Source of the DNA: a virus
Length of the DNA: 33,655 bases
Strand: one strand, 5' to 3'
Virus record (IMG/VR): IMGVR_UViG_3300044911_001183
Span: 1 to 33,655 of that record
Numbering within the stretch: the first letter of the stretch is position 1; each line of letters opens with the position of its first letter. The notes under the pieces were generated by a model. It ran no database searches and was not told where the DNA came from. It saw nothing but the letters and a program-made list of their open reading frames with translations. The translations under genes and the position numbers were made by a program. This document shows positions 1 through 32,160 of this stretch, piece after piece.

Positions 1-1406
1 ACGTTACCACTACGTTCGATCTGCAGGTGCGTACGCCCACCGTTGAGGCAAACGCCGGGTTCGCTCAGATGTCAAGCGAGAACGACGCGGGCGATGCTAC
101 TGGCACCCGCTACTGCTTGTCGCCAGAATCGGACCCGGACTATCGCCTGCGTGCGGCGACCGATTCTCTGTGGGACAGCGAGACGTTCAACTACAACGGC
201 ATCAACAGTGCCAAGTACCGCATGCAGTCCAGCGGGTTCGTACCGGCATACTCGTCCGGCTATGTGTCATTCAATCCGACGAGTGCGACGGCGGCGAATA
301 ACGCGGCGTGCCTAACCACGTGGAAGTATTTCCCGATCTACGGTGCGGATCAGACGTACCTCGAAGTCAGTGCGGCGATCACTACGACGATTGCTACCGG
401 CAACACGCTGGAGTTCGGATTCTACACGACCGGAACGAGTGCCCCATATACCCCGACCGATGGGGCGTTCATTCGCGTCACGACTACCGGCGTGATTGGC
501 GTGTGCAGTTTCAACGGCTCGGAAACCACTACGGGCGTGTTCGCAGCGGTCGGAGGCGGCAACTTCACGATGGCCGCGAACACGTTCTACCACCTCGTTG
601 TGAGCATCAACGAACGCGAGGTCCAGTTCTGGATTGACGACGTTCTCCGGGGGACGATCAACCTTGACCTCACCGGAACCGGACAGCCGTTTATGAACGG
701 TTCGCTGCCCGTGTCGTTCACGCAGCGATTGCCGGGTACGGGCGGCTCGGCAATGACGCTCCGCATCTCGGACTACACCGTGTCCAAGGGCGGCTATGTG
801 CCGTTCCGTTCGTGGGAGTCCGGGCTTGCGGCGATGGGCTCATGTGGCTATCAGGCCCAGAGCGGGTCCACGATGGGCAGCACGGCCAACTACGCCAACT
901 CGGCCAACCCTACGGCGGCGGTGCCGACCAACACCACGGCGGCACTTGGTTCGGGTCTTGGCGGGCAGTTCTGGGAAACTGATACTTTGGCCGCGACCAC
1001 GGACGGCATCATCTGTTCATACCAGAACCCGGCGGCAACGGTCAATCTCAGCGGGCGAACGCTCCTGATTCGCGGCGTGAAGATTGCAAGTCACGTTCAG
1101 ACCGTGCTTGGTGCAGGTGCGGGCTACGTTGCATCATGGTCGCTGGCGTTCGGCAGCACAAACGTCTCGCTCGCTACTACCGAATCGTCCATCGCCAAAG
1201 CCCCTCGCCGCGTGGCGTTGGGATTCCAGACCGTGCCGACCACGGCGGCAGCATTGACGCTCTTGCAGGAAGTGCAAATGCGGTTCGATTGCCCAATCCC
1301 CGTCCAGCCAGGCGAGTTCGTCCAGATCGTCAAGAAGAAGATCGGAGCGGCCCCCGCATCCGGCACCATCGCACACCTCATCACGTTTGATTGCGTATTC
1401 GAGTGA
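1..1406 (+). CDS. lectin-like tail protein, 5'-truncated copy
   Basis: This is the 3' part of a long virion gene whose complete version is at 32161-33612. The window opens inside it; the first whole codon is at position 3 (VTTTFDLQV), and the missing 15 codons are present in the other copy. The segment around 598-660 (HLVVSINEREVQFWIDD) resembles the strand pattern of a concanavalin/LamG-type jelly-roll domain, so a carbohydrate-binding or receptor-binding role at the tail tip is inferred. It lies after tail genes on the closed map and is followed by another structural gene. It differs from the 3' copy by about 70 silent or near-silent bases and one residue (Ile against Val near position 495). 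It is probably a strain variant of the same gene brought in by assembly, not a second gene. Confidence 0.8.
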   Translation, partial: VTTTFDLQVRTPTVEANAGFAQMSSENDAGDATGTRYCLSPESDPDYRLRAATDSLWDSETFNYNGINSAKYRMQSSGFVPAYSSGYVSFNPTSATAANNAACLTTWKYFPIYGADQTYLEVSAAITTTIATGNTLEFGFYTTGTSAPYTPTDGAFIRVTTTGVIGVCSFNGSETTTGVFAAVGGGNFTMAANTFYHLVVSINEREVQFWIDDVLRGTINLDLTGTGQPFMNGSLPVSFTQRLPGTGGSAMTLRISDYTVSKGGYVPFRSWESGLAAMGSCGYQAQSGSTMGSTANYANSANPTAAVPTNTTAALGSGLGGQFWETDTLAATTDGIICSYQNPAATVNLSGRTLLIRGVKIASHVQTVLGAGAGYVASWSLAFGSTNVSLATTESSIAKAPRRVALGFQTVPTTAAALTLLQEVQMRFDCPIPVQPGEFVQIVKKKIGAAPASGTIAHLITFDCVFE

Positions 1407-1449
1407 TACACTCCACCAAAGGAACCTGACACATGGCAGACACCTATCT
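1..1449. repeat. left copy of terminal overlap (paired with 32207-33655)
   Basis: Positions 1-1449 align without indels to 32207-33655. A hand comparison gives about 70 mismatches. Positions 1-127 are identical, the first mismatch is at 128, the last is at 1322, and 1323-1449 are identical, which makes both flanks exactly 127 nt. Flanks of that fixed length are what a de Bruijn assembler with k=127 leaves when a contig starts and ends on the two arms of a strain-variant bubble. The inferred unit genome is 33655 minus 1449, or 32206 bp. Confidence 0.9.
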
Positions 1450-2329
1450 TGCAGCCGGGGCAACGTCACTCGCTGCCGCTAACTGGTCCGATGCAACCGG
1501 ACTCGCGGCGAATGCAACGGCGTTCATTCAGACTGGAACCCAGACCATCACGGGCGGACTTGCCCCGTCGATTGCTACGGGCATCAACAACCTTGACATC
1601 CTCCCCGGATTCTCGGGCACCATCGGCGGTGCGGCTGGTTCGCTGGCCGTCGAAACCGATCTGGCATCGTGGAACCCGTCCACGCAGATTTCACGCATCC
1701 GGTATCTCGCTGCTGGCGGTGTAATGAACTACACCCCGCAGGGTGCGGGCGGTGCGGCTGACTCGGCTGGATTCGTCCAGTGTCAGGGTGCTGGCTCGCT
1801 CAACCTGACGGGCACGGGCACCATCCGGGCGGTCCAGTGCCAGAGCGGGCGTATGTACATCGCCCCGACTATCGGCAGCATTGCCACCTATCGCTGGGTC
1901 TTCAGTGGTGGTACGTCAACGATTGACGGCGTGAGCGGGTCAACCAAGATCCACGCAATCACCATCGCGGGCGGGCAGCATCTTCTGAAGAAGGGGATTC
2001 AGGGTTCTACGCTCGCGTCCACGGGATTCGTTGAAGGGCTCAACGTGTGCGGGGGCCAACTCACCATCGACGCATTTGGTGAAACCATCTCGGATCTGCG
2101 GATCTACGGCGGGTACGTGACGGTAGTGAACTGCGGCACGATTGCCGTTATCAGCGGGTACAACGGCACGCTCGACTTCAGCAAACTCCAGCGGCCCGTG
2201 ACCGTGACCCTGCTGGAAGACGGCCCCAACCTTACCGTTATCCCGTCGAAGCTCCTGACCATCACAACCTACAGCGGTGCGACGAACGGTCGCCAGCCGA
2301 TCAACGCAGGTGCAAACGGCCTGACCTGA
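1433..2329 (+). CDS. virion structural protein, beta-rich, probable tail tip or fibre
   Basis: This 298-residue protein is rich in Gly, Ser, Thr and Ala with short alternating hydrophobic strands (for example LRIYGGYVTVVNCGTIAVI), the look of a parallel beta-helix or stacked beta structure. No enzyme motif is visible. The start is chosen at ATG 1433, 9 nt after a clear AAGGA site. Its leader CAAAGGAACCTGACACATG is repeated exactly before the gene at 24928. It follows the lectin-like tail protein by 26 nt and precedes a Cys-rich gene by 4 nt, so it belongs to the tail operon. The host-contact role is inference from position and composition only. Confidence 0.7.
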   Translation: MADTYLAAGATSLAAANWSDATGLAANATAFIQTGTQTITGGLAPSIATGINNLDILPGFSGTIGGAAGSLAVETDLASWNPSTQISRIRYLAAGGVMNYTPQGAGGAADSAGFVQCQGAGSLNLTGTGTIRAVQCQSGRMYIAPTIGSIATYRWVFSGGTSTIDGVSGSTKIHAITIAGGQHLLKKGIQGSTLASTGFVEGLNVCGGQLTIDAFGETISDLRIYGGYVTVVNCGTIAVISGYNGTLDFSKLQRPVTVTLLEDGPNLTVIPSKLLTITTYSGATNGRQPINAGANGLT

Positions 2330-5830: not shown

Positions 5831-5892
5831 GACCGCCAGGCTAACGCTGAAGCGGTCATTTCGGCGGCGTTCACTGCTGGTGCGGTTGAACG
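5831..5892 (+). promoter_or_regulatory. two leader hairpins before the recombination operon
   Basis: GACCGC-CAG at 5831-5839 pairs with CTG-aa-GCGGTC ending at 5857, followed by ATTTC. CGTTCA at 5868-5873 pairs with TGAACG at 5887-5892. Together with the terminator-like stem at 5902-5938 these give three consecutive hairpins in the 134-nt gap before the ERF gene. Confidence 0.45.
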
Positions 5893-5901
5893 TTGTTAAG
5901 A

Positions 5902-5944
5902 GCCGCCGCGTGTCGCCGTGCCTTGTTGGTGCGGCGGCGTTTTT
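5902..5944 (+). terminator. intrinsic terminator or attenuator before ERF gene
   Basis: GCCGCCGC at 5902-5909 pairs perfectly with GCGGCGGC at 5931-5938 and is followed by a five-T run at 5940-5944. The ribosome site GAGGAG of the next gene begins immediately after. A terminator placed directly before a start site, in the same direction as the gene, is the arrangement of an attenuator or of a terminator that antitermination must pass. The 21-nt loop makes it weaker than a compact terminator. Confidence 0.55.
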
Positions 5945-5957
5945 GAGGAGCAATCGA

Positions 5958-17496: not shown

Positions 17497-17810
17497 GTAC
17501 GCTCGACACCGGACACCACATCACCCCGTCAGACCCCATCACGGCCCGCATGTCCGCAGGCGAGTGGTGGAAGGTCATTTCCCTGATCGTGGGAACGGCC
17601 ATAACCGGGGCGATCTACGTCACGAACATGCAGGGGTCAATCGCGGACGCGACACGCGAGGCGAAAGACGCGGCCAGGGACGCAGCCAAGGCTCTCGACC
17701 AGTCAAACGCCGTCAAGGCCGAACTTCAGGGGGCACTCGTCGCCCTGTCCAGCAAACTCGGACGTATCGAGGGTCTTTTGGAGCGGCTGACGCAGGAGCC
17801 TCGCAAGTGA
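17493..17810 (+). CDS. membrane coiled-coil protein, holin-like candidate
   Basis: The 105-residue product from ATG 17493 has one membrane segment at about residues 25-44 (WWKVISLIVGTAITGAIYV) and a C-terminal coiled coil (ATREAKDAARDAAKALDQ... LSSKLGRIEGLLERL). Size and topology match many phage membrane proteins placed in lysis cassettes. A holin role is inferred from neighbours only. The stop overlaps the next GTG (GTGA). Confidence 0.6.
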   Translation: MSTLDTGHHITPSDPITARMSAGEWWKVISLIVGTAITGAIYVTNMQGSIADATREAKDAARDAAKALDQSNAVKAELQGALVALSSKLGRIEGLLERLTQEPRK

Positions 17811-18022
17811 CCGTGATAGCGTTACTTATCGCACTCGTCACACCCGCCAAGTGGTACCGTTGGCAGTTGCCCGTCAACACGGGCGACACCTGCTGGTCCG
17901 CTCATCTGGTCAGGCTGCATGAGTGTGCGGTTCAACACCCGGACGCAACTAGCATCCAGCGGGCGGTCTGTGAGGCATCATCGCGGGGGCAGTACACGGC
18001 TTGCATCGAGGGCATTCCATGA
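17807..18022 (+). CDS. small exported Cys-containing protein
   Basis: From GTG 17807 the 71-residue product starts with a short hydrophobic segment (MTVIALLIALVTPA) like a signal peptide, then a mature part with four cysteines (TCW, ECA, VCEA, ACIEG) that could form two disulfides. It overlaps the terminase-block gene after it by 4 nt. An o-spanin-like or periplasmic lysis helper is possible, but there is no lipobox. Function unknown. Confidence 0.5.
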   Translation: MTVIALLIALVTPAKWYRWQLPVNTGDTCWSAHLVRLHECAVQHPDATSIQRAVCEASSRGQYTACIEGIP

Positions 18023-18522
18023 GCGACACGAACAACACCCAACCACTCGACCACTGGTCTAGCGACGATCTGGAGGCCGACGCGGACGCAGGCCCCAAGC
18101 AACAGGCACCACATGCCGCACAAGAATGGAGTTCTTGTACGCAGGCAAAATCGGATTTTCAAGCGGAACCGCCGACTACAAGCGTAGTTCCTACAGTTTC
18201 CGGGGGTCAGGGGCAAGATTCCGGCATTCTGGCAGATCCGGGGCACGCGGCTCAGGATGCGAAACTGGTACGCCGGGCGATCCGCAACGGGTGGAACGTG
18301 CCTGATTCCGCCAAGCCCCGCATCGTCGGTCGGCTCGTCACCATCGTTGACCAGTCGCCGGATGACGGGGACGCGATCAAGGCCGCGAGCGTTCTGCGGT
18401 CGATGGACGCACAGGACCAGGATCTTGCGATCAAGGAACACGAACTGGAACGCATCGACTCCGGGAAGGCGACGCAGGCGGTGCAGTTGTACGGGCGTGA
18501 GGCCCCAATCGACGCGGTATGA
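18019..18522 (+). CDS. probable small terminase subunit
   Basis: The 167-residue protein has a disordered acidic first half and a helical second half (AKLVRRAIRNGWNVPDSAKPRIVGRLVTIV ... AIKAASVLRSMDAQDQDLAIKEHELERI). It ends 3 nt before the large terminase, the usual place for the DNA-recognition subunit of the packaging motor. Sequence alone does not show a clear helix-turn-helix. ATG 18019 overlaps the previous stop. Confidence 0.6.
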   Translation: MSDTNNTQPLDHWSSDDLEADADAGPKQQAPHAAQEWSSCTQAKSDFQAEPPTTSVVPTVSGGQGQDSGILADPGHAAQDAKLVRRAIRNGWNVPDSAKPRIVGRLVTIVDQSPDDGDAIKAASVLRSMDAQDQDLAIKEHELERIDSGKATQAVQLYGREAPIDAV

Positions 18523-18525
18523 CGC

Positions 18526-19917
18526 ATGGCGACACCCAAGCACAAGCCCGCAGCCTACAACCCGTACGGGGCCGTGCGTGAGGTGTGGCTGTCGCGTGCC
18601 CCGGAGGTGCTGATACCTGGCGGGGCAGGAACGGGCAAGACCCGTGGTGTGCTGGAGAAACTGCACCTGTTCCTGCTGAAGTACCCCGGCACCCGTGGCC
18701 TGATCGTCCGCAAGACCCGTGCAAGCATGACGGAATCCGTGCTGGTCACGTACGAATCCCACGTGGCTCTGGCTGGCGTGACGGTCGGCACCAACCTACG
18801 CCGGACCCGTTCGGCCTACGAGTACAGCAACGGCAGTACGCTGGTGGTTGGCGGCATGGACAACGCCGACCGCATCATGTCCACGGAATACGACATCATC
18901 GCGGTATTCGAAGCCACCGAACTGAGCGAGGATGATCTGGAGAAACTGACGACCCGCCTCCGCAACGGGCGGGGGCCGTACCACCAGCTCATAGCGGACT
19001 GCAACCCTGCGGCCCCGTCACACTGGCTGAAACGCCGGGCGGATCGTGGGGCTATGGCCGTGTTTCATTCGACCCACAAGGACAACCCCCGCCTATGGAA
19101 CGGCACCGCATGGACACCCGAGGGGCAGCGGTATCTCGCGTCGCTGGGAAGCCTGACCGGCCACCGCCGAGCCCGCCTGCTGGACGGCAAATGGGCCGCG
19201 TCCGAGGGTTTGGTCTACCCCGAGTTTGACGCGTCGGTACACGTGCTGGACCGCATGCCCGAGGGTTGGGAATCGTGGCGCCGCATCAGGTCCATGGACT
19301 TCGGCTTCGTCCATCCCTTCGTGTGCCAATGGTGGGCAATCGACGGGGACGGGCGGATGTACTTGTACCGTGAGGTCTACCGGGCCAAACGGACCACCGA
19401 CGAGCATGCCAGCCAGATCAACGAACTGTCGAAGGGGGAACGCTATGACGCGACCGTTACCGACCACGACCCCGACGTACGCGGCATCCTCGCCAAAGCC
19501 GGAATCCAAAGCGTGCTTGCTGAGAAGAACCACGGGGCAGGCCGCGATGCGGTCCACGCTCGTCTGCGTGTACAGGGTGACGGCAAACCGAGGCTATTCG
19601 TCCTCGCTGGTTGTACGCATGAAGTAGACGGCGACCTGTACGAACGCAAGCGGCCGACTAGCACGCTGGCCGAGTTTGACAGCTACGTATACCCACCAGG
19701 CCGCGACGGGAAAGCCGAGAAGGAAGAACCCGTCAAAGAGTGCGACGACGGCATGGACGCGATGCGTTACGCGGTGATGTGGCTGGACTCTCCGAACAAG
19801 GGCTACGGGGCGTGGTCTGGTGGATCTGCGAAAGAACCGGAGCCGTCCGCTAAGGTGCCAACGATGGATCGTGATACACTTGCCCGACGCGACCTCGTAC
19901 ACAGGATGTTTGCATGA
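18526..19917 (+). CDS. terL: large terminase subunit (ATPase and nuclease)
   Basis: The 463-residue protein has the packaging motor motifs: Walker A GGAGTGKT at 32-39, Walker B DIIAVFEA at 122-130 with Glu129, coupling motif ADCNP at 157-161, and the RNase H-like nuclease acidic residues D258 (RSMDFGF), D313 (VTDHDPD) and the DDGMDAMRY group at 407-413. It pumps DNA into the prohead and cuts the concatemer. Length is normal. The stop overlaps the portal ATG. With the closed-map evidence, a headful-type enzyme fits, but the subtype is not proved. Confidence 0.95.
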   Translation: MATPKHKPAAYNPYGAVREVWLSRAPEVLIPGGAGTGKTRGVLEKLHLFLLKYPGTRGLIVRKTRASMTESVLVTYESHVALAGVTVGTNLRRTRSAYEYSNGSTLVVGGMDNADRIMSTEYDIIAVFEATELSEDDLEKLTTRLRNGRGPYHQLIADCNPAAPSHWLKRRADRGAMAVFHSTHKDNPRLWNGTAWTPEGQRYLASLGSLTGHRRARLLDGKWAASEGLVYPEFDASVHVLDRMPEGWESWRRIRSMDFGFVHPFVCQWWAIDGDGRMYLYREVYRAKRTTDEHASQINELSKGERYDATVTDHDPDVRGILAKAGIQSVLAEKNHGAGRDAVHARLRVQGDGKPRLFVLAGCTHEVDGDLYERKRPTSTLAEFDSYVYPPGRDGKAEKEEPVKECDDGMDAMRYAVMWLDSPNKGYGAWSGGSAKEPEPSAKVPTMDRDTLARRDLVHRMFA

Positions 19918-22646
19918 CGGCCAAGAAACCCACGATCAAGCAGCAAGGCCAACCCGCAATGCGTGGCGTGAAGGCCGTTGAGCCGTACGACGACCGCCCG
20001 TTGAACGCCGGGTGGGTGTCCGCGTCTGTGATTCAAGGCGAGGACGCATCGAGCCGCTACAACAACAACACGGGCCGCGACTTCGAGTTGGTCGCACGGG
20101 CCCGACTTGGTACGCCTGCTCATGCGTGTGGAATCCTTGCCAACGTGTGCAGCTCGCAGACGCTGCGGCTCTATCGCCGTGCGGCCCGTGGTGCCAAGCG
20201 GTACGCCTCGCGTGCTGTGACCGACCGCAAGACGCTGAAGTATCTTCGCGGCGACGGCGAGGTACGCCCGACCGCGTGCAAGGGAGCGAACTACGCCAGC
20301 AAGGCGGGCGACGGCATCGAGGAAGTGCTGGATAGCCCGATCCTGTCGGTGCTTCAGAACCCGGACCCCGTGTATTGCGGGCAGTTGTGGATGAAGTTGC
20401 TCTGGTGGCAGCGTGAGGCGTGCGGGCGTTCGTACATCTGGGCGGGCGACCGCGTGGGCGGCATCCCGACGAGTCTGTACCTGCTGCCGAGTGCGTACAC
20501 GTGGCCCGTCAAGTCACGCACCGGGCTCATCTCTGAGTTCATCTACGCCCGTAATCGCTCGGACATGTTCCACGCATCGACCGACGATGTGGTGTACATC
20601 CGGTCCATGCCCGATCCGTTCGACCCGGTGGGTGCGTTGTCGTGGCTCCAGAGCGTGACCGCCGAGGCCGACATGGAAGCGGCGGCACTGACCGCAGAAG
20701 TCGCACGATGGAACAACGGTGGGCATCCCGGCATGGTCTTCAAGGCTGGGGCACAGAACGACAATACCCAGATGATGCAGATGCGGTCGGCACTGGAGAA
20801 CCAGATTCGCGGCGTAGGCAAGGCGGGGAACTTCCTGCTGTTGCGTGACACGGAACTGGTGCAGTACGCCACCAAGCCCCATGAGATGCAGTACATTCAG
20901 GGCATGGAGGCGACACAGAAGCGGATCTACGACGCGGCGGGAATCCCCGAACCGATCTATCGCCTCAACTCTGCGAACCTCGCGAGTGCGACCGTGGCCG
21001 ATGCGATGTTTGCGAAGTTGTCCATCGCCCCGCGTCTGGCGACAATGGCGAGCGAGTTGACCGAGGGCCTGCTGCCGCTGTTTGGCGTTGAGCCTGGCGA
21101 AATGTGGTTCAGCTACGACAACCCCGTGCGGGACGATGTGGTACTGCTCGCGGCGGAACTGCGTGCGGCTGAGTTGCAGGGCATCATCTACCCCAACGAG
21201 TACCGGCACATTCTCGACCTTGAAGCCCTGCCGGATGAAATGAACGTGCTTCGGTTCCGCCAGACCGAGGCACCGCCCCCGATGTTCGACCCGTTCAGCG
21301 TGCCAGCGAAGGTGTCGCCCGCTGCCGAAGCGGAGATGGAAGACGACACGGAAGAAAACGCACCAGACGAGGAAGACGATGCCGAAGGAAACACAGACGA
21401 CACCGTAACCAAGTCCGTAACGACCAAGGCCGACTCCTACGAACCCACCGACAGCATGGCCGAGGAAGCACAGCGGGGGCTCGATTGGCGGGAGGAGTTT
21501 GGACGCGGCGGTACTGAGATTGGCGTAGCCCGTGCCCGTGACATCAGCAACAAACGCGGCCTGTCGCTGGACACCGTGTACCGCATGGCATCGTACTTCG
21601 CCCGTCACGAGGTGGACAAGCAGGGGCAGGGCTGGTCGCCGGATCAGGACGGATACCCGTCTGCCGGTCGCATCGCATGGGCCTTGTGGGGCGGCGATCC
21701 GGGGCGTACGTGGGCTGAGAAGATCGTCAAGCAGGTTGAAAGCGATGATGACACCGATCCGAGCCCGTCCGGCGGAAAGTCCGTTGGCTCGTCAGTTGGA
21801 GCGTGCGAATGCGTATCTTGCGGCAAGGGAGGGAGTGCGGTTCTCAAGTCTGCCAATGACACCGCAGCGGCTGGTGGCGATCATGGATCAGCGGACGTTC
21901 GAACGGATGGTCACGGACGGGACGGCATCGAACTGAAGGCGATGGGCGAATGGGACGAAGACGCGAACGTGCCCAAGTCAACGGTGCGGATCTTCAACGA
22001 GTTTGCGAACAAGATGAACACGTGGTATATGACCGTCATTCCGTCGATGGTGAATGACACCGCAGGCGTGGACCCGCCGACCGTCAAGCAGATGCAGGAC
22101 TTCACGAACATCACGGATGACTTCATCGCCAAGACTTTGCAGAACGGGGCGGCGGTCGGTATCGCACAGATCCCCGGTGCAACGGCGGACACGTTCAACA
22201 CGGCCAATGAACCGGCCATGCAGTACATCCGCGACCGTGGACTCGAGTTGGCTATCAGCGTGCCCGAAACGCTGGTCGGCACCGTGCAGGCCGCAATCGA
22301 GAAGGAACTGGCGGACGGCACCAGCACGGGCCAGATGCGGGACGCGATTGCGAAGGCGGCACCAGAACTGAGCGGCTATCAGGCCGAACGCATCGCCCGC
22401 ACGGAAACCACGAACGCCTTCAACCAAGGGGCGTTGCAATCGTGGAAAGAGGCGGGCGTGCAGGGCAAGCGATGGATTCTGGCGGGCGGTCCATGCCCCG
22501 AATGCGAAGGGCTCGCGGCGAAGTACCCCGGACCGATTCCGATTGACGACCTGTTCGAATACGGCGGGGTCGCGGTAGAGCATCCCGTACTGCACCCGAA
22601 CTGCCGCTGTAGCTACGTCCCTGTTTTGGAGATGCCCAATGAGTAA
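19914..22646 (+). CDS. portal protein fused to a MuF-like head morphogenesis domain
   Basis: One uninterrupted frame of 910 residues has three parts. Residues about 40-440 look like an HK97/SPP1-type portal (SPILSVLQNPDPVYCGQLWMKLL region, then MQYIQGMEATQKRIYDAAGIPEPIYR). An acidic linker (EDDTEENAPDEEDDAEGNTDD) leads to a domain at about 513-605 (GGTEIGVARARDI, YFARHEVDKQGQGW, SAGRIAWALWGGDPG) often seen in phage head proteins. Residues about 680-905 form a Mu gpF-like domain (AERIARTETTNAFNQGAL, CPECEGLAAKYPG, HPNCRCSYVPV). Residues 611-675 read poorly, while another frame there is open and looks coding (21745-21936). MuF could also start alone at ATG 21942, 5 nt after that frame's stop. 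So the product may be a true fusion or two proteins. Confidence 0.85.
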   Translation: MTAKKPTIKQQGQPAMRGVKAVEPYDDRPLNAGWVSASVIQGEDASSRYNNNTGRDFELVARARLGTPAHACGILANVCSSQTLRLYRRAARGAKRYASRAVTDRKTLKYLRGDGEVRPTACKGANYASKAGDGIEEVLDSPILSVLQNPDPVYCGQLWMKLLWWQREACGRSYIWAGDRVGGIPTSLYLLPSAYTWPVKSRTGLISEFIYARNRSDMFHASTDDVVYIRSMPDPFDPVGALSWLQSVTAEADMEAAALTAEVARWNNGGHPGMVFKAGAQNDNTQMMQMRSALENQIRGVGKAGNFLLLRDTELVQYATKPHEMQYIQGMEATQKRIYDAAGIPEPIYRLNSANLASATVADAMFAKLSIAPRLATMASELTEGLLPLFGVEPGEMWFSYDNPVRDDVVLLAAELRAAELQGIIYPNEYRHILDLEALPDEMNVLRFRQTEAPPPMFDPFSVPAKVSPAAEAEMEDDTEENAPDEEDDAEGNTDDTVTKSVTTKADSYEPTDSMAEEAQRGLDWREEFGRGGTEIGVARARDISNKRGLSLDTVYRMASYFARHEVDKQGQGWSPDQDGYPSAGRIAWALWGGDPGRTWAEKIVKQVESDDDTDPSPSGGKSVGSSVGACECVSCGKGGSAVLKSANDTAAAGGDHGSADVRTDGHGRDGIELKAMGEWDEDANVPKSTVRIFNEFANKMNTWYMTVIPSMVNDTAGVDPPTVKQMQDFTNITDDFIAKTLQNGAAVGIAQIPGATADTFNTANEPAMQYIRDRGLELAISVPETLVGTVQAAIEKELADGTSTGQMRDAIAKAAPELSGYQAERIARTETTNAFNQGALQSWKEAGVQGKRWILAGGPCPECEGLAAKYPGPIPIDDLFEYGGVAVEHPVLHPNCRCSYVPVLEMPNE
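21745..21936 (+). CDS. nested overlapping open frame within the portal/MuF gene
   Basis: In the +1 frame relative to the portal gene, ATG 21745 opens 63 codons that end at TGA 21934-21936. The peptide (LARQLERANAYLAAREGVRF, then MTPQRLVAIMDQRTFERMV) has normal amino-acid balance and uses CGG, CGT, GCG, ACG and TTC codons like the neighbouring genes, while the portal frame here has scattered Ser/Gly/Cys. It could be a separate small gene, the C-terminus of the portal reached by a +1 frameshift, or chance. The stop lies 5 nt before a possible MuF start at 21942. There is no strong ribosome site. Confidence 0.45.
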   Translation: MMTPIRARPAESPLARQLERANAYLAAREGVRFSSLPMTPQRLVAIMDQRTFERMVTDGTASN

Positions 22647-23343
22647 CGAAAACCCCATCATCCACAAGATCCGCCGCCGTGCGGCTGACTTCCGGTCGAT
22701 GAGCGATCCGGCCAACCCCATCGGCCTGCTGTCGGCCCCGTGGGGGGCACACCGCAAGAGCCTGATTCGCAAGGCGGACGTTGCCAACGGGCGACCACTC
22801 GAGATTGTGGCGTACGCCAATACGTCGGCGGTCGATCTGGAGCGGGAGGTAGTGGTGCCGAGCGGCGGCGATGTGCGTTCGTACCTGACGACGAACGGCA
22901 ATCTGTTCGTGGATCACCAGTACGACATGGAACACGTGGTAGCCAAGTGCCTTCGCATGGCGTTGGACCCTACCGGCTGGCTCTGCACCGGGCAGTTCTT
23001 CCGTGGGTTCGAGACGGAGTACACCAAGGCATGCCTGGCGTTGGCAATGGCCGGGACGCTGGCAATGTCCATCGGGTTCGAGGCTCTGGATTGGGGCGAC
23101 CCGTCGCAAGAGGAACAGCGGCTGTATCCGGGCATCGAGAGCATCGTTCGCCGGTGGAAGGCTCTGGAGGTGTCGTACACGGCCCTGCCGATGAACGTGA
23201 CCTGCCGCCAAGTATCGACGAACCTCGCGGCTGCGGAAGTGGTAGCCGAGAAGTCACGCAAAGCCCTGATCGACGCTCACGTTTCCGCCGATGTGGTCAA
23301 GCGGTTCGGAATCAAGCCCAAGCGGATTCTGATCCTGACCTGA
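22639..23343 (+). CDS. HK97-type prohead protease
   Basis: The 234-residue protein follows the U35/S78 protease pattern: PLEIVAYANTSAVDLEREVVVP at about 54-74, the catalytic His in LFVDHQYD (H93), Ser in LAMSIGFEALDW (S144), and LEVSYTALPMN with the acidic E177. It cleaves the scaffolding part of the capsid protein during head maturation. ATG 22639 overlaps the previous stop by 8 nt. It stands directly before the capsid gene, as usual. Confidence 0.88.
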   Translation: MSNENPIIHKIRRRAADFRSMSDPANPIGLLSAPWGAHRKSLIRKADVANGRPLEIVAYANTSAVDLEREVVVPSGGDVRSYLTTNGNLFVDHQYDMEHVVAKCLRMALDPTGWLCTGQFFRGFETEYTKACLALAMAGTLAMSIGFEALDWGDPSQEEQRLYPGIESIVRRWKALEVSYTALPMNVTCRQVSTNLAAAEVVAEKSRKALIDAHVSADVVKRFGIKPKRILILT

Positions 23344-23532
23344 TAACGTGGGTACAATGTGGGGCATTGTCTCCTCCCCGGCACGTTGAGAAACACGCTC
23401 ACATGCCGGGTTCAACCGAATAGACCCTGCGACTCGCAGAGACTCGGGAACGCTCGCCGCGTCGGCCACCGTTCACCCACTCTCCAGCATGAGCAGAGAT
23501 ACACCAAACCCGCAAGGGAAGGAATCTCTGTT
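23344..23532 (+). promoter_or_regulatory. structured leader of the capsid gene
   Basis: This 189-nt gap carries several signals. TACAAT at 23353-23358 is a -10-like box without a clear -35. ACAATG 23354-23359 and CATTGT 23365-23370 form a 6-bp dyad over it. CCCGGCA 23377-23383 pairs with TGCCGGG 23404-23410 around an inner GTT-GAGA-AAC hairpin (GNRA loop), preceded by CTCCT and followed by TT. CTGCG-ACT-CGCAG lies at 23427-23439. The ribosome site GGAAGGA is about 10 nt before ATG 23533. A dedicated promoter and stable leader would raise capsid output. Confidence 0.5.
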
Positions 23533-24897
23533 ATGAATCGCAAGTCACTGATCACGCTCCTGAAGGCCAACGGCTACGCCGAGGCCGTCCCCACTCTCGA
23601 AACCGTCAAGTCGCATGTCACCAAGCTCGCCGCCGAAGGCGTTGAAATCAACGGCAGCGACGGCAACCCCATCAACGTCGATGCGGTATGGTCGGCCAAG
23701 TCTGTGCTGACCCTCGCTGACGACGATGCCGACACCGCACTGAGCGAGTCTCAGCGGAAGTCGATCATCGCTGATGCGAAGGGCAAGGACAGCCCGCATG
23801 CTGACGACGAAGTTAGCAACCGCAGCCCCAGCCGATTCACCATCGGCAATGCGGCACGCAAGGCGTATGAACGCAAGATCCGCGACGGCAAGTCTGTGTT
23901 CGCCGACCCCGATCAGGCCGAGGGATACGCCGCGTGGGTTCGCTTGCAGGCTGCCGGTCATCACCACTACACCCAGAAGACGGCGGACATCGAGATTTGC
24001 AAGAAGAACCAGGTTGAGTTCAACCAGCAGCTTGGCGGGGCTCTCGTCCCGCAGGTGTTTGTTCCCCAGTTGATCTGGCTCACCGAGCAGTACGGTGCAG
24101 GCCCCCGGCTTGCCAACGTGGTTCCGATGGGTTCGGAGTCTGCCGCGTACCCCCGTAAGACGGGCATTACGGCCATGACCCCGATGGGCGAAGGCTCGAC
24201 GATGTCCGTGACGACCAACAGCTACGGCAACGTGACGCTGACGGCGAAGGAATACGGCGTGCTGATGAGCTACAGCAACTCGCTGTTCAACGATGCCGCA
24301 GTCAACGTGGCCGACGACATCGCCAACACGATGGCAGAAGCCAAGGCAATCGCCGTGGACAATGCGTACTTCCTTGGTGACGGCACCAGCACATACGCCG
24401 GACAGGTCGGCCTGACTGCCGCACTCCCCAGTGGTGCGTACATCAACGGCTCCGGCAACTCGTGGTCGGCAATCACCAAGGACGACTTCACCTCAATCAT
24501 GGGTGCGGTCCAGAACATCAACGCTGCCCGCCTCAGCTTCACGTGCAGCCGTCAGTTCTTCGTGCAGGTGATGATGCGTCTGGACAAGGCTACCAGCCAG
24601 TTCAAGGACATCACCTCTGGCAACCTTGGCGGCGGAACGTTCATGGGCTACCCGGTGCAGTTCGCTCAGGTCATGCCCATCACTTCGGCGAGTGCAAGCC
24701 GCGTGTGCTACTTTGGTGACTTCACTGGCGGCAGCATGATCGGCGACCGTCAGGATCTGACGATTGCCACCAGCGAGCAGTTCCTGTTCAACACCAACAG
24801 CGTGGCGGTTCGTGGCGTGGCTCGGTTCAATGTGAACATCCACGGCGACGGTCGCGGCTCGACTGTTGGACCCATCGCCGCACTCGTCACGACCTGA
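23533..24897 (+). CDS. major capsid protein, HK97 fold
   Basis: The 454-residue protein has an N-terminal helical, charged section (about 1-130) that would serve as a scaffolding delta domain, then the HK97-type body: QLGGALVPQVFVPQLIWLTEQYGAGPRLANVVPM, LTAKEYGVLMSYSNSLFNDAAVNVADDI, and a late FLFNTNSVAVRGVARFNV strand. It follows the protease and its structured leader. Start ATG 23533 is chosen because the upstream open frame crosses the hairpins and lacks a ribosome site. Confidence 0.92.
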   Translation: MNRKSLITLLKANGYAEAVPTLETVKSHVTKLAAEGVEINGSDGNPINVDAVWSAKSVLTLADDDADTALSESQRKSIIADAKGKDSPHADDEVSNRSPSRFTIGNAARKAYERKIRDGKSVFADPDQAEGYAAWVRLQAAGHHHYTQKTADIEICKKNQVEFNQQLGGALVPQVFVPQLIWLTEQYGAGPRLANVVPMGSESAAYPRKTGITAMTPMGEGSTMSVTTNSYGNVTLTAKEYGVLMSYSNSLFNDAAVNVADDIANTMAEAKAIAVDNAYFLGDGTSTYAGQVGLTAALPSGAYINGSGNSWSAITKDDFTSIMGAVQNINAARLSFTCSRQFFVQVMMRLDKATSQFKDITSGNLGGGTFMGYPVQFAQVMPITSASASRVCYFGDFTGGSMIGDRQDLTIATSEQFLFNTNSVAVRGVARFNVNIHGDGRGSTVGPIAALVTT

Positions 24898-24927
24898 TAG
24901 ACCAACAACCACAAAGGAACCTGACAC

Positions 24928-25407
24928 ATGAAAACCCTTCTCAACGCATACTTCAAGGGCGGCACCTCAACGGGTGGCCCTCTTGACATCAACGGCACGA
25001 CCAACACGGGCACCGCGTTCGATACGTCCGTTCTCGGCGGGCTCGGTGAAGCCGCGTGCATCGTGACCTTCGGCAACGTCGCCGCTGACACGACCGCACT
25101 GAAGATCGAAGAATCCAACGACAACTCCGCGTGGGTCGATGTGACCGGCGGCGGGTTCACTTCGACTGCTCTGCCCGCTGCTACTGGTGGCGACAACAAG
25201 CAGTGGCTGTTCCACGTTGAACTCGGCGGTTCACGCCGTCGCTACCTCCGTGTGACTTGCACCGCAGGTGCGGCAGCAACCCTCTACGGTGCGGTGTGGA
25301 TCGGCCTCAACCCGGCTCAGGGTGTGAACGGCTCTACCGAAGTTGCCCGTGGTGCGGCTCAGAACCTCGGCAACAGCTCGTCGCTCCTCGGTCGCATCGT
25401 GCTGTAA
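24928..25407 (+). CDS. probable capsid decoration or stabilisation protein
   Basis: The 159-residue protein is beta-rich and Gly/Thr/Ala-rich (FDTSVLGGLGEAACIVTFGNVAADTTALKIEESNDNSAWVDV) and stands 30 nt after the capsid gene, the common place for decoration proteins. Its leader CAAAGGAACCTGACACATG is the same as that at 1415-1435. No named family is certain; an Ig-like or jelly-roll fold is inferred. Confidence 0.65.
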   Translation: MKTLLNAYFKGGTSTGGPLDINGTTNTGTAFDTSVLGGLGEAACIVTFGNVAADTTALKIEESNDNSAWVDVTGGGFTSTALPAATGGDNKQWLFHVELGGSRRRYLRVTCTAGAAATLYGAVWIGLNPAQGVNGSTEVARGAAQNLGNSSSLLGRIVL

Positions 25408-25425
25408 TCCTCCCCTGTTTCTCTC

Positions 25426-25458
25426 ACCCCCGGCTCATGGAAACGTGGGCCGGTTGGT
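25426..25458 (+). ncRNA. repeated structured element, copy 4
   Basis: CCGGCTCATG at 25430-25439 pairs over 10 bp (two G-T wobbles) with CGTGGGCCGG at 25444-25453 around a GAAA tetraloop, and ACC 25426-25428 pairs with GGT 25456-25458 across a small internal loop. The flanks are CTCTC and TTTC, matching copies 1 and 2 although the stem sequence differs. It stands in the 71-nt gap between two structural genes, 17 nt before the AAGGAG site region of the gene at 25479. Confidence 0.65.
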
Positions 25459-25478
25459 TTCACCTAAGGAGCTAACAC

Positions 25479-26021
25479 ATGGCGGCACCAGTCAACCTCG
25501 GATCGGACATCAAGAGCGGCGGGCCCGGCGTGATGTTCCCAAGCAACCAGTTCGGAAAGTGGACGATGATTCACACCGACGCGGAGCAGGTAAACACCGC
25601 TGCTGAACTGCTCAACCCAGGCAGCGTGTCGTCAACGTACGTCATTCCCGGCATCGTGACGCAGGGCACGCGGCTGATGATCATCGCACGCATCCTGTAC
25701 GCTGCGACCGTGACCACATCGCCCGTGGTGCGGATCTTCGGTGCAGACCAAGTTCCCAACTCGTCAGGCGTATTTCCGGGAGGAACGATCTTCCACCGCA
25801 TCGACGCTGACGCGTTTACAACGGCTGGTACGACCGTCACGCTTGCTGCGGCGGCATCAGCACAGAACGACGGGGCGGTATATGCCTACTCGTCCGTTCT
25901 GCCTGCGACTAGTGCGATGGGCTACCAGTTGCGTGGTGCAAAGGCGATCATCGTTCTGATCAACACGGCTGCAAACGTATCGACTGGTGCCGTTCCTCTG
26001 TTCGTCAGCATCATCAACTAA
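25479..26021 (+). CDS. virion structural protein near the capsid gene
   Basis: The 180-residue protein is rich in Ala, Thr, Val and Ile with alternating strands (STYVIPGIVTQGTRLMIIARILYAATVTTSPVVRIFGADQ) and no enzyme motif. Position after the capsid and decoration-like genes suggests a head accessory or fibre protein. Start ATG 25479 follows AAGGAG; a structured hairpin lies in its leader. Confidence 0.65.
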   Translation: MAAPVNLGSDIKSGGPGVMFPSNQFGKWTMIHTDAEQVNTAAELLNPGSVSSTYVIPGIVTQGTRLMIIARILYAATVTTSPVVRIFGADQVPNSSGVFPGGTIFHRIDADAFTTAGTTVTLAAAASAQNDGAVYAYSSVLPATSAMGYQLRGAKAIIVLINTAANVSTGAVPLFVSIIN

Positions 26022-26031
26022 GGGGCTACCC

Positions 26032-26667
26032 GTGGCGTTCCTTGTCTCACGCACCGATTACAAGTCTTGGCGAGGCATCACCGGAACGGCGGACGATACG
26101 TTCATCGACTTGATTCTCGGCTGGGTGTCGAATGACATCCGCGACTATTGCAGCCGCGACGGGACCAACGGCTTCGAGTCTGCGACACGGACTGAATACT
26201 ACAGCGGTCCTGACGATGCAATCATCCAACTCCGCGAACGGCCCGTTACGTCGATTACCTCGGTGACGCAGACCTACGCGGGCGGGCAGAGCGTGGTACT
26301 CGAATCCAGCACGTACCGCGTCGATGCCGATTCGGGCCTGCTGTCGCGGATCGACGTTGCACGCAGCCGGTTCGCGTCGTACTCGGCTACGTACCTCGGG
26401 CAGGGTGGCGACTTCAAGCCGTCCCCGCGATTCGAGGAAGGGTTCAACAACTTCACGGTGGTCTACGTGGCTGGCTACGCCACCATCCCCGGAGCATTGC
26501 AGAAGGCGACCTGCCTTCTGGCGGACATGCTGTTCAACGGGCGTGGGCGTGACATGGCGGTACAGTCTGAAACCATCGGCCAGTATTCGTACACGTTGGC
26601 GGACCAGAAGCGCGTGGATGACATTCGCATGAGCCTGCTGCGTGGCTACGTGACGGGGGGTGCGTAA
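26032..26667 (+). CDS. head-tail connector (gp6-like)
   Basis: The 211-residue protein starts at GTG 26032. It opens with a short helical region (LVSRTDYKSWRGITGTADDTFIDLILGWVSNDIRDYC), followed by EYYSGPDDAIIQLRERPVTSITSVTQ and a YRVDADSGLL strand, then VVYVAGYATIPGALQKATCLLADMLF. This is the pattern of HK97 gp6-like adaptor proteins that extend the portal. The stop shares a base with the next ATG. Confidence 0.82.
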   Translation: MAFLVSRTDYKSWRGITGTADDTFIDLILGWVSNDIRDYCSRDGTNGFESATRTEYYSGPDDAIIQLRERPVTSITSVTQTYAGGQSVVLESSTYRVDADSGLLSRIDVARSRFASYSATYLGQGGDFKPSPRFEEGFNNFTVVYVAGYATIPGALQKATCLLADMLFNGRGRDMAVQSETIGQYSYTLADQKRVDDIRMSLLRGYVTGGA

Positions 26668-27020
26668 TGGCATCTACCCCGTGGCACCTGTTGACGATGA
26701 CGGCATCGTTGGACAACAAGACATGGCTGACGGCGAATAGCGGCATCCCGTACGGGTCATTGCCACCCGATCCAATCGACATTGCATGTGCGATGCAGCC
26801 GACAAGTGCGGCGGACGGTCTGGTGTACGGGCGTGACACGACTACGCAGATGTTTGACCTGTTCCTGGCACCGACGACGACCGCAGGGGCCGCGTGGGAC
26901 TGTTCGCCAGCTGATCAGATTTCCATCAATAGCGTGGTGTACCGCATCGAAGGGAAGCCGCAGGACATGTGCAGCATGGGCGTGCTGAAGAAGTTGGTAG
27001 TATCGAGGGACTTGAACTGA
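26667..27020 (+). CDS. head closure (stopper) protein
   Basis: The 117-residue protein has the head-closure look: GRDTTTQMFDLFLAP, then the strand-turn-strand ISINSVVYRIEGKPQDMCSMG near the end. Its place between connector and tail completion genes matches the gpFII/SPP1 gp16-like stoppers. It overlaps both neighbours by one base (TAATGG and TGATG). Confidence 0.7.
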   Translation: MASTPWHLLTMTASLDNKTWLTANSGIPYGSLPPDPIDIACAMQPTSAADGLVYGRDTTTQMFDLFLAPTTTAGAAWDCSPADQISINSVVYRIEGKPQDMCSMGVLKKLVVSRDLN

Positions 27021-27646
27021 TGAACGTGGGCAAGGTGACAATGACCGTTGACACGGCCAAGCTCAAAGCGAAACTCGAGCGGGCTGTCAATACGGGCGTG
27101 TACCGTGCTGCGTTGGTCTATGAGGCGTTCATCAAGGACAGTTTCACGAAGACCGCCGTAGGAACGCACTCGGCACCAGGCCAGCCACCGGGAACGCAGA
27201 CGGGAATGCTGCGGAACGGCATCCGTGCTACGCCAGCGAAGAACGGCAAGAGCATCATCACGACTTCCAAAGCCAAGTACGCGGCCATGATGGAGTTTGG
27301 CGGGACGATCCGGGCCAAGTCTGGCGGGTTCCTGCCGGTTCCGTTGAACGCCGAAGCCAAGCGGCTCCAGAAGCGGACGGCGGGCGGGCTTCGCAACTCC
27401 GCGACCCCGATGCACATCCTCCGCACCAAGACCGGGCGACTGTTCCTCGTCAAGCATCTGACCCGCAAGTCAAAGAACGCGACGAAGTTGCTCGGCTCGC
27501 AGATGATGTTCATCCTCAAAAAGTCCGTGACCATCGCGGCACGCCCGTACATGCGGCCCGCTGAACAGAACGCGGCTCTCTACGTCAAGGCTACCGATGC
27601 ATTCGAAGCGGCTGTGAAGGAAGTTCTGAGCAAGGGGGCCGCATGA
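27020..27646 (+). CDS. tail completion / HK97 gp10-like protein
   Basis: The 208-residue basic protein has VYRAALVYEAFIKDSF at about 28-43, PGQPPGTQTGMLRNGI at about 54-69, and KYAAMMEFGGTIRAKSGGFLPVP, followed near the end by ITIAARPYMRP-type residues (VTIAARPYMRPAEQ). EFG and RPF/RPY-M-x-P blocks mark the HK97 gp10 and minor tail Z family that joins the tail to the head. It stands in the right order. The ATG at 27020 overlaps the previous stop. Confidence 0.85.
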   Translation: MNVGKVTMTVDTAKLKAKLERAVNTGVYRAALVYEAFIKDSFTKTAVGTHSAPGQPPGTQTGMLRNGIRATPAKNGKSIITTSKAKYAAMMEFGGTIRAKSGGFLPVPLNAEAKRLQKRTAGGLRNSATPMHILRTKTGRLFLVKHLTRKSKNATKLLGSQMMFILKKSVTIAARPYMRPAEQNAALYVKATDAFEAAVKEVLSKGAA

Positions 27647-28146
27647 TCCTCGCACCGATCTACCAGGCGATCTACGACCGCATGAAGGCCGACACTGGCG
27701 CGGGTGGGCTCTACAACGGTGGGGCGTGGAATCTCATCACGGGCGGGGCCTATACCGTGTTTGCGGCACCTACGCCGATCACCGGGCCCTACCTGGTCTT
27801 CAGCGTGGCGATGCAGCAGCAGAACACGACAACGGGCGACGAGTTCCTTTGCACGGCGACCTTCAACCTCTACGACCGTTTGAATGAATCATCGCAGACG
27901 GCGTACATCGGCACATCGATCTTGCCAGCACTCGACCGCCTGCACGGGAACGCGGTGCTGCAGAATGGCCGCGTGCCTACCTACGGGTTCAACCGGCATC
28001 GGCTGGTGCTGCCGACGAACGGGTATTCCGCTGTGGCGAGTACGTGCATCGTTGAGGACAATGACGCGACGATCGTGAGCGAGAACGTGGTAATGGCGAC
28101 GATGAAGATGGCATTCAGGGTGTCGGCAATCGCCGCGAACCCGTAA
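27643..28146 (+). CDS. tail terminator protein
   Basis: The 167-residue protein (ATG 27643, overlapping the previous stop) begins MILAPIYQAIYDRMKADTG, has YLVFSVAMQQQNTTTGDEFLCTATFNLYDR and later VASTCIVEDNDATIVSENVVMATMKMAFRV. The layout is that of gpU/DUF3168-like tail terminators, which cap the tail tube. Support comes mostly from order (after gp10-like, before the tube protein). Confidence 0.7.
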   Translation: MILAPIYQAIYDRMKADTGAGGLYNGGAWNLITGGAYTVFAAPTPITGPYLVFSVAMQQQNTTTGDEFLCTATFNLYDRLNESSQTAYIGTSILPALDRLHGNAVLQNGRVPTYGFNRHRLVLPTNGYSAVASTCIVEDNDATIVSENVVMATMKMAFRVSAIAANP

Positions 28147-28157
28147 GGAGTTGACCT

Positions 28158-29012
28158 ATGGCAGACTGGCCGCTGACATCTGAACTTGGCAACCTGACTT
28201 GCTCGGCGGGCAGTGGTGACCTGCTGTACCTGCTGGGAACATCGCTCCGCGTTGCGGCGGACGTTGCCACTCTGAACATCGAGAGCAATGAGTACGACGC
28301 GACCACGCCAACAGGTAGTGCCGTGAACTTCATGACGATGAACGCTGGCCTGCGGTCGGCAACCATCGACTTCAACGGCATCTACCCGCGTGCCGCAAGC
28401 CCGCTTGGCATCACCTCGCTCATCACGTTCGCAGCCGGGTACGTCAAGCACGTAACCGCGTTCAACATCAACATTGAGTTTGGCGAGTTCGACGCGACCG
28501 CTACGACTGGTGCCGTGGGCAACTGGCGGGCGTTCCGTCCCAAGGGCACGGGCCGCTGGGGCGGGTCCTATACGTGCCTTGCGGACAACGCCACCCCGCC
28601 CACGTTGCCAAGTTCGGCAGCATCGGCATCGGCGGTGACGTTCAAACTGGGCGAGGACGGCGTAGCCGATCCAACCCTGACCGGGTTCATCACGGCCCCG
28701 CGACTGAATCAGACGGTTCGGATTGGCGACGAGTCGCAGTTGGTGTACTCGTTCACGGGCTCGGGCGACCTGACGCAGACGGCGGGAACGGCTCTCCCCG
28801 GCCTGACGGCGGCATCTGGTGTGATTACCAAACCGGCTTGGGATCTGAACGGAGATGGAACAGCGGATAACACCTGCGTACTGACCGTGGCATCTGGTCG
28901 CACGTACACCGGCCCGTTCTTCTGGACGCGGCTGAACCTCGCGTGGAAGATGGATGATGTCGTGCGGGTTAGCGGAACGCTCCGGGCGGCTGGTGCTATC
29001 ACCGTGGCGTAA
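28158..29012 (+). CDS. major tail (tube) protein
   Basis: The 284-residue protein is beta-rich with two similar segments (NIESNEYDATTPTGSAVNFM and NIEFGEFDATATTGAVGNWR), which may be a duplicated strand-loop of the tube fold or an added domain. SD AAGGAG precedes ATG 28158. It stands between the tail terminator and the tape measure, where the tube protein is expected. No tail-assembly chaperone gene lies between this gene and the next; the gap is 9 nt. Confidence 0.78.
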   Translation: MADWPLTSELGNLTCSAGSGDLLYLLGTSLRVAADVATLNIESNEYDATTPTGSAVNFMTMNAGLRSATIDFNGIYPRAASPLGITSLITFAAGYVKHVTAFNINIEFGEFDATATTGAVGNWRAFRPKGTGRWGGSYTCLADNATPPTLPSSAASASAVTFKLGEDGVADPTLTGFITAPRLNQTVRIGDESQLVYSFTGSGDLTQTAGTALPGLTAASGVITKPAWDLNGDGTADNTCVLTVASGRTYTGPFFWTRLNLAWKMDDVVRVSGTLRAAGAITVA

Positions 29013-29021
29013 GGGGGCACA

Positions 29022-30029
29022 ATGGCGACTCGCGGCAAAGACGGGTCTGTAGAGATTCAGGTAACTGGCGACACCTCCCCACTGGAGGCATCGGTAGCCG
29101 CTGCGAAGGCCAAGGTAGAAGCCGAAGGATCGACGGGCAAGGTTGGTGCGGCATCGACGCAGGCGGCTGCGGATGTGGCGAAGGTTGGGGTAGCGGCGAC
29201 CGAATCGACTGAAGCACTCAATCAGATGGGGCAGGCGGGAGAGAAGGCCGTAGGTGCCGAGGCTCCGCTGCAAGGCGGTTTGAAGGGACTGAACAAGACC
29301 CTTGGAGATACGGTCGGGCAGGTTCAAGGGCTCATCGGAAAGTTCACAATCGTTGCCGGTGTCGCAACAGGCATGTACGCACTTGGTCGGGCTATCCGCG
29401 AGTCGGTCATTTCCGCACTGGAAACCGGCACAGAGAAGGCCAACAGGTTCGCGGAGAGTCTGGACCTGTCCAAGAAGGCCGAATCAATCAAGTCGATTTC
29501 GGATGAAATCAACAAGCTGTCCGGCGAACTGACGGCACAGGAAACGAACCCGCTCGATCGTGCCGTAGGATTCTTCACCGGCACAAACCCGGAGAAGCTC
29601 AAAGAGGAAATCACGCGGCTCAACAAGTTGTCCCAGAGCCTGCGAGATAATGAGCAGGCCGCTCGTCGCCGCAAGGAACGCGACGATGAATCCAAGGCGT
29701 ACCTTGAACTTCAGCAATCTCGGATGAAGGCATCCGAGGAATATGACGACCTTGTACAGAAGTCGCTCGACAAAGAATCGGAAGCACGCGATAGCCAGAT
29801 TGAGGATTTCCGCAAGTCGATGCAGGAACTTGGCGACGAAATGACCAAGCAGGCCAAGCGGTCGCAAGAGGCGTGGGTCGATTCGCTGCGGGCAATCCGC
29901 GAAGAATCAAACCGTGCGTTCAACACCGATCAGGCCGCGTCGATGGTGCAGCTCGCTGGAAACCTTCGCACTACGGCCACCATCGCAACGGCCAACATGA
30001 ACCGCATCGTTGTCGGGGGTGACGACTAA
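29022..30029 (+). CDS. short tape measure protein
   Basis: The 335-residue protein is mostly helical and charged, with one membrane-like helix at about 105-126 (IGKFTIVAGVATGMYALGRAI) and long heptad stretches (EEITRLNKLSQSLRDNEQAARRRKERDDES). This is the composition of tape measures, which set tail length, but the length is very small; at about 1.5 angstrom per residue it would fit a tail near 50 nm. It shares a base with the next gene (TAATG). Start ATG 29022 follows AAGGGGG. Confidence 0.78.
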   Translation: MATRGKDGSVEIQVTGDTSPLEASVAAAKAKVEAEGSTGKVGAASTQAAADVAKVGVAATESTEALNQMGQAGEKAVGAEAPLQGGLKGLNKTLGDTVGQVQGLIGKFTIVAGVATGMYALGRAIRESVISALETGTEKANRFAESLDLSKKAESIKSISDEINKLSGELTAQETNPLDRAVGFFTGTNPEKLKEEITRLNKLSQSLRDNEQAARRRKERDDESKAYLELQQSRMKASEEYDDLVQKSLDKESEARDSQIEDFRKSMQELGDEMTKQAKRSQEAWVDSLRAIREESNRAFNTDQAASMVQLAGNLRTTATIATANMNRIVVGGDD

Positions 30030-30892
30030 TGGCATTGAACGTCTACGAACTTGGGCTTACGGGCAACGGTCAGGCCGTGGACTACAACGGCAAGGCTTCG
30101 GCCACCCGTACGTTTGTCGTGGACACGATTAGCCAGCAAGCGGCACTCGAAGCGGACGGAATCCCCGCACTCAACAGCCAGCATCCGACACTTCCGAACC
30201 TCATCCTTGACGCAATTGACGCTCAGGTAGAGGATGGGGGAATCTGCCGGGTGGTGTGCCGGTATTCGAACAGTCGGCAGTTCGGTAGCACGCGAACCCC
30301 GAACAAGGATGCTCCGCGTTGGTATCACTGGGGCTGGGCCTCGCGTGTGGTGCAGATCGAAGTACCGATTGCCGTGCGTGCGTTGGTCATCGCCAAAGAC
30401 CAGTTTGGGGCAGGCGACGAGCGGCTGGTCTGGAAGATCGGTCGCAAGATCGTCAATGAGACACGGATTATCCGACCGCTTCAGGTGCGTGTGCAGGTGT
30501 CGAACGTCCGCGACCTTGACGTTATCGCACAGCAGAAAGACCGGCTGCACGTGATGCCGGACGGCAACCAGTACCACTTCGAAGGGGCGACGGTCAACCA
30601 GGTTGACGATAACGGCACCTACGACATCTCGTACATCTGGGAGCTGGACGAAGGCACGTTCAACTTCCCGCCGTTTGCGACCACAAACGCCCGGTATTGC
30701 GTGCAGGTGACGGGCGGTCAATCTCCCGAAGATCCTGACGCTGGCCCGATCTTCCGCAACCCATACACCGTGTTCGTGGCCTACCAGATTGGCGATCCGT
30801 CTGTGACGATTCCAAACTGCGAACTGAACGCTCTCTATCCCGTCGATGCAAACGGCTGGCGGCAACTCCCCGGAGCAAACCGAATCATCTAA
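30029..30892 (+). CDS. tail tip / baseplate protein
   Basis: The 287-residue protein starts at ATG 30029, overlapping the previous stop. It is beta-rich (VRALVIAKDQFGAGDERLVWKIGRKI, FEGATVNQVDDNGTYDISYIWELDEG) with a Pro-rich FNFPPF motif. It follows the tape measure, where distal tail or hub proteins sit. No family is certain. Confidence 0.65.
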   Translation: MALNVYELGLTGNGQAVDYNGKASATRTFVVDTISQQAALEADGIPALNSQHPTLPNLILDAIDAQVEDGGICRVVCRYSNSRQFGSTRTPNKDAPRWYHWGWASRVVQIEVPIAVRALVIAKDQFGAGDERLVWKIGRKIVNETRIIRPLQVRVQVSNVRDLDVIAQQKDRLHVMPDGNQYHFEGATVNQVDDNGTYDISYIWELDEGTFNFPPFATTNARYCVQVTGGQSPEDPDAGPIFRNPYTVFVAYQIGDPSVTIPNCELNALYPVDANGWRQLPGANRII

Positions 30893-32157: not shown

Positions 32158-32160
32158 TTC

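Follow-up and report, generated by a model that had tools for sequence, protein, structure and literature searches.

Two nearly identical stretches at opposite ends of a viral contig raise the question of whether the phage carries one gene twice or whether the assembler wrote one gene twice. Here, we address that question for the window (the whole 33,655-nt stretch of DNA analyzed, IMG/VR record IMGVR_UViG_3300044911_001183). Positions 1 to 1449 and 32207 to 33655 aligned without gaps, with 70 mismatches (the first at 128, the last at 1322), and the mismatched tract was flanked on both sides by exactly 127 identical nucleotides. Offsetting the alignment by 1 to 5 bases in either direction raised the count to between 1,051 and 1,145 mismatches. 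With both strands counted, the only 127-mers present twice in the window were those starting at 1 and 32207 and at 1323 and 33529. When 70 mismatches were placed at random in 1,449 positions, both flanks reached at least 127 nt in 0 of 200,000 placements, and equal flanks of at least 30 nt arose in 0.13% of them. The gap-free match with exact 127-nt flanks that a sequence-only reading had described was confirmed by the ungapped alignment and the 127-mer count. As a control, 65 whole contigs (window included) were searched for end matches (ungapped, same orientation, exact 16-nt start, less than 15% mismatches, 40 to 6,000 nt or half the contig in length). Long imperfect matching ends were found in the window alone, and 63 of the 65 had neither these nor an exact terminal repeat.

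The k=127 graph of the window had 0 dead ends and two branch vertices (1 to 127 and 1323 to 1449), joined by two 1,449-nt arms and one 31,011-nt edge; the contig start and end are the two branch vertices. All features lie on the plus strand. Branch vertex U occurs at 1 to 127 and again at 32207 to 32333, and merge vertex V at 1323 to 1449 and again at 33529 to 33655, the second copy being seen in the end alignment, the repeated 127-mers, and the graph alike. Between them lie bubble arm A (128 to 1322) and bubble arm B (32334 to 33528, from the end alignment and the graph), which differ at the 70 sites. The shared edge from V to U (1323 to 32333) is single and holds the rest of the genome. Eight values of k were tried (33, 55, 77, 99, 126, 127, 128, and 141), and because of the flank lengths, 127 alone set the first and last k bases of the contig on branch vertices. 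At k=126 the branch vertex shifted one base inward, at 128 and 141 the graph opened to one linear piece, and at 33, 55, 77, and 99 there were more branch vertices than at 127, with the tract dividing into two bubbles at 77 or 99. A circle with one bubble, walked from arm A through the backbone and out along arm B, yields this geometry.

For metaSPAdes, 127 is documented as a maximum k, and metaSPAdes contigs broken at repeats bear end sequences of length maxK (both from the part of PMC10914622 available to us). SPAdes --meta with k up to 127 was used in two other studies (PMC12697132 and PMC12352057, available sections), and the portions seen of PMC10793357 and PMC11265017 name metaSPAdes and give no k. 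A search for papers naming any of the five metagenome numbers of the contigs used here found none. In a within-sample test of k, which included several loci that are parts of contigs, 14 of 16 contig pairs shared at most 53 nt; with 140 and 683 nt in the other two, shared runs between contigs of the same assembly can exceed 127 nt.

The match falls in a gene for a 483-amino-acid (aa) protein. The arm-B allele is complete (32161 to 33612, plus strand), and the arm-A allele as written (3 to 1406, plus strand) starts at codon 17, without the ATG at 32161 and the first 16 codons. Copy A could in principle be translated in shortened form, without the joint, from an in-frame GTG at 27, and its missing ATG is therefore supporting rather than decisive evidence. 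Joining the end of the backbone to position 1 supplies the 16 codons: with the first 46 bases of the gene (32161 to 32206) added, copy A gives a full frame that differs from B at I181V only. Of the 70 mismatches, 62 are at third codon positions; 63 codons differ, and 68 differences are synonymous while the other 2 share the only codon whose residue changes (by a simple count, dS is about 0.215 and dN about 0.002). Using the relatives L005 and L006 (below) did not polarize the alleles, since of the 70 sites, L005 agreed with A at 18 and with B at 21, leaving 31 with neither; for L006 the respective counts were 25, 24, and 21. The polymorphism underlying the two copies appears to be real.

We put at roughly 95% the probability that the contig ends reflect a k=127 de Bruijn bubble in a 32,206-bp circle with one copy of the 483-aa gene, present in the sample as two alleles. 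The contig would then be a path through the graph. A sample holding alleles A and B, with 70 differing sites over 1,195 nt and at least 127 identical nucleotides on each side, would give a circle with one bubble. An assembler that started on arm A at branch vertex U would continue along the shared 31,011-nt edge and then follow arm B as far as merge vertex V. With the onward edge already used, the walk would end there, so that both arms would be written, at opposite ends. Directly observed are the window's graph geometry, another contig that spans the joint, and the single copies of relatives; we infer which assembler and k were used, the path it took, and that the window's own reads contained both alleles. 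The apparent gene duplication is thus most likely an assembly artifact, and the genome is probably a circle closing at 32,206 bp.

Three independent IMG/VR contigs contain the piece of U used as query. Contig L034 (also L102; IMGVR_UViG_3300034012_000820, 13,920 nt) equals window positions 18414 to 32333 (plus strand) over its whole length with 0 differences, and its end, the last base of the second copy of U, is one base ahead of the first A/B mismatch. Contig L103 (3300042376_000507, the same contig as L040; 13,545 nt) spans the joint: 6,349 nt match exactly, from 26003 across 32206 (6,204 nt, plus strand) into positions 1 to 145, and at sites 128 and 137, the 2 of the 70 A/B sites that it reaches, it carries the A alleles. 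Ahead of 25914, L103 has 77 to 97% identity to the window in 500-nt blocks. Opposite 26003, near the start of the frame at 25987, it changes abruptly from divergent to identical, which marks either a recombination breakpoint or an assembly chimera. The third contig, L004 (3300034118_000458, 7,220 nt), is identical to the window from 26023 to 33185 (7,163 nt, including most of arm B) and has B alleles at 51 sites followed by A alleles at 6, with the switch in a 62-base identical run between arm positions 917 and 980. L103 and L004 could each be a chimera of its own assembly.

The contigs stop at the edge of the tract or within it, at arm positions 127 (L034), 145 (L103), and 1036 (L004). Only L034 stops exactly at the A/B branch; the other two stop off A/B sites (the next are at 167 and 1040). 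A further contig, L035 (3300042376_000845, 5,793 nt), equals window positions 17692 to 23484 and does not reach the tract. As L034 and L035 lie wholly within the window, they probably come from assemblies other than its own. A 33-base piece of V had no exact match in other viral contigs, so the downstream merge was not seen independently at near-identity.

More distant relatives also show one copy. L005 and L006, whose proteins have 64% and 63% identity to the 483-aa protein, each cross the joint with a single copy followed by the gene at 1433, and none of the four relatives that cross the joint (L005, L006, L033, and L042) has two copies. All 29 of the 29 loci with the 483-aa gene show one copy, and the window alone shows two; in this count L004 covers the gene incompletely, and several loci come from portions of contigs, where a distant second copy would be missed. 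L006 (IMGVR_UViG_3300032332_000850) has an exact terminal repeat of 123 nt, not 127, and is on that account probably a complete relative of about 31.8 kb. Of the 35 window genes tested, 23 match L006 and follow a single circular order in which the window's end connects to the window's own start. In L006 (reversed contig, 27613 to 28158 and 28217 to 28699), adjacent matches to the window gene at 25479 to 26021 (44% and 36% identity) represent a possible tandem duplication of that gene. The best ten terminase matches of 986 annotated-phage records were to Thermobifida and Streptomyces phages; at 38 to 48% identity, these are too far for the host to be named.

L033 and L042 had no match to the 483-aa protein. 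Between the shared neighbors, its place is taken by genes of 302 and 352 aa in L033 (12273 to 14502 of its contig, L118) and of 309 and 353 aa in L042 (10768 to 13071 of its contig, L116), counting only frames of at least 150 aa; neither of the two L033 proteins had a Pfam match. Both loci are divergent from the window along most of the compared stretch. The upstream neighbor (31663 to 32157, plus strand) matches at 29 of 164 residues in each, which, judged by position, is its N-terminal part. The downstream neighbor (1433 to 2329, plus strand) follows the single copy in L005 and L006 and the other genes in L033 and L042, and a search with its protein confirmed 1 locus (L033) of 8 candidate stretches. 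A 19-nt exact repeat occurs at 1417 to 1435, 24912 to 24930, and 33623 to 33641 (the third place being the V copy). It precedes the genes at 1433 and 24928, spans the start codon, and in our reading includes an AGGA-type ribosome-binding site. In L033, the sequence becomes similar to the window again at 1417, the start of this repeat.

Against this evidence, a real duplication, with both copies on one phage molecule and the contig ends falling within or beside them, is very improbable. A single contig does bear both copies, an old duplicate kept by purifying selection would also diverge almost only by synonymous changes, and the in-frame GTG at 27 could start copy A; however, both contig ends fall exactly on 127-nt vertices, copy A as written is truncated at its start, L103 connects the backbone straight to arm-A alleles, and a second copy is present in 0 of the 29 gene-bearing loci (some of them parts of contigs) and in none of the four joint-crossing relatives. 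The contig ends, L103, and the relatives with one copy were the grounds for rejecting a real tandem duplication. Natural terminal redundancy, in which a packaged linear genome would have direct end repeats that have since diverged, is scarcely credible. Repeats at the two ends of one molecule would be expected to match each other; the window's ends have 70 differences in the center and exactly 127 identical bases at each edge. Such a repeat would open within the 483-aa gene and take in the first 17 nt of the next, although terminal repeats spanning a few hundred base pairs are present in some phages (PMC10563150, in the part available). The k=127 bubble proposed from the sequence, the artificial nature of the duplication, and closure at 32,206 bp were all supported by the graph structure, the independent contigs, and the relatives.

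The origin of the two arms is a separate matter. The bubble could be real and A and B could come from two lineages that differ genome-wide by some percent, in which case only short stretches such as U and V would be common to both and the 31-kb edge would come from one lineage. Divergent relatives do occur in other metagenomes (L103 ahead of 25914, L033, and L042), but L103 carries two A alleles after 6,204 nt of exact window identity and L004 six A alleles after 7,163 nt, each contig being a possible chimera, and we regard a genome-wide difference as unlikely. The sequence-only reading had claimed at least two coexisting lineages, for which "two alleles" is the safer wording. In another metagenome, the two A alleles of L103 come after 6,204 nucleotides identical to the window, so the A/B difference may reflect local recombination over a tract and not two clonal genomes.

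Alleles that encode almost identical proteins, on a possibly shared backbone, suggest that a gene tract was replaced by homologous exchange, a reading supported by L103 and L004, either of which may be chimeric. Genes of the ERF family and of YqaJ-type recombination proteins adjoin each other at 5880 to 7363. At rather less than even odds, we tentatively consider the lectin-fold gene a recurrent recombination hot spot, where alleles at a dS of about 0.2 would be swapped onto otherwise identical backbones. Exchange within the gene (the B-to-A switch in L004) and replacement by other genes (L033 and L042) would both belong to such a process, the A/B polymorphism would recur in several metagenomes, and the phage's own ERF and YqaJ-type proteins would be possible agents.

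The 483-aa protein had no Pfam or PHROG match at an E value of 0.01 and no match among annotated phages. An AlphaFold2 model built from a 26-protein alignment (mean pLDDT, 74.5) predicted a concanavalin-A-like beta-sandwich domain at residues about 71 to 280 (32371 to 33000, plus strand). In structure searches, this predicted domain resembled glucanases and lectins of the concanavalin-A-like fold (Foldseek best row, E = 1.7e-07; 50th row, E = 1.5e-06; VIA-align to 3d6e_B, Z = 18.6, root mean square deviation of 2.6 over 174 residues), and the VIA-align rows all concern one domain, residues 58 to 281. The best viral model match was an uncharacterized protein of an uncultured tailed phage (E = 3.1e-39, 31% identity), with LamG, concanavalin-like, and minor tail proteins lower among the 50 viral-model rows listed. 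Among the 26 aligned proteins, Pfam detected SO2946-like_C in 2 (best E = 9.8e-06), GH16 in 1 (E = 0.0022), and six further families weakly, in a single member each; PHROGs gave one unnamed family (3 of 26). A sequence search of solved structures with the 26-member alignment gave one match, which was nonsignificant (E = 0.14). A weak match to a major tail protein PHROG lies at 28158 to 29012, and the 483-aa gene is placed after the tail genes. A shared fold by itself shows no function; from the predicted fold, the place after the tail genes, and the exchange at the locus taken together, the product is a putative host-recognition protein that may bind sugars.

This contig clearly exemplifies a known artifact, behind which a real polymorphism probably lies. 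With the artifact recognized, a spurious gene duplication disappears, and a record that looked like a linear fragment becomes what is probably a complete circular phage genome of 32,206 bp. The signature is simple (contig ends that recur internally as exact k-mers, with a divergent tract between), and a search for it in viral collections could recover hidden complete genomes and list two-allele loci.

Strain bubbles in metagenome assembly graphs are described for Phables (PMC10563150); as here, in the sections available, a vertex has several outgoing branches that reconverge, owing to strain diversity. The usual outcome given there is that one arm is kept or the contig stops, whereas in the window a single contig has an arm at each end, giving a circular genome the look of a linear one in which a gene is duplicated. 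The part of the COBRA paper that we could consult (PMC10914622) likewise has contig ends of exactly maxK marking a branching point and compares end sequences between contigs. Each 127-nt end of the window instead recurs 1,322 nt in from the opposite end, and end-to-end comparison would therefore be expected to miss it. The sections available on strain bubbles, COBRA, Phables, and metaviralSPAdes covered the general phenomenon, and no two-ended bubble of this kind was seen in them.

The locus itself recalls the metaviromic islands of marine phages, variable loci between otherwise close relatives (PMC3909814, in the portion seen). Carbohydrate-binding and lectin-like genes, a kind also predicted at the window locus, are frequent among the identifiable ones there, and variable lectin-like and tail-fiber genes in phage populations are described in the same portion. 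Those islands are defined by read recruitment, with too few metagenome reads recruited at the locus. With 1 of 483 residues differing between A and B, this pair does not by itself indicate a change in recognition. Nearer to the metaviromic-island pattern than the A/B pair is the replacement of the gene in L033 and L042, and a single variable, probably host-facing locus is the kind of place where phage variation is expected.
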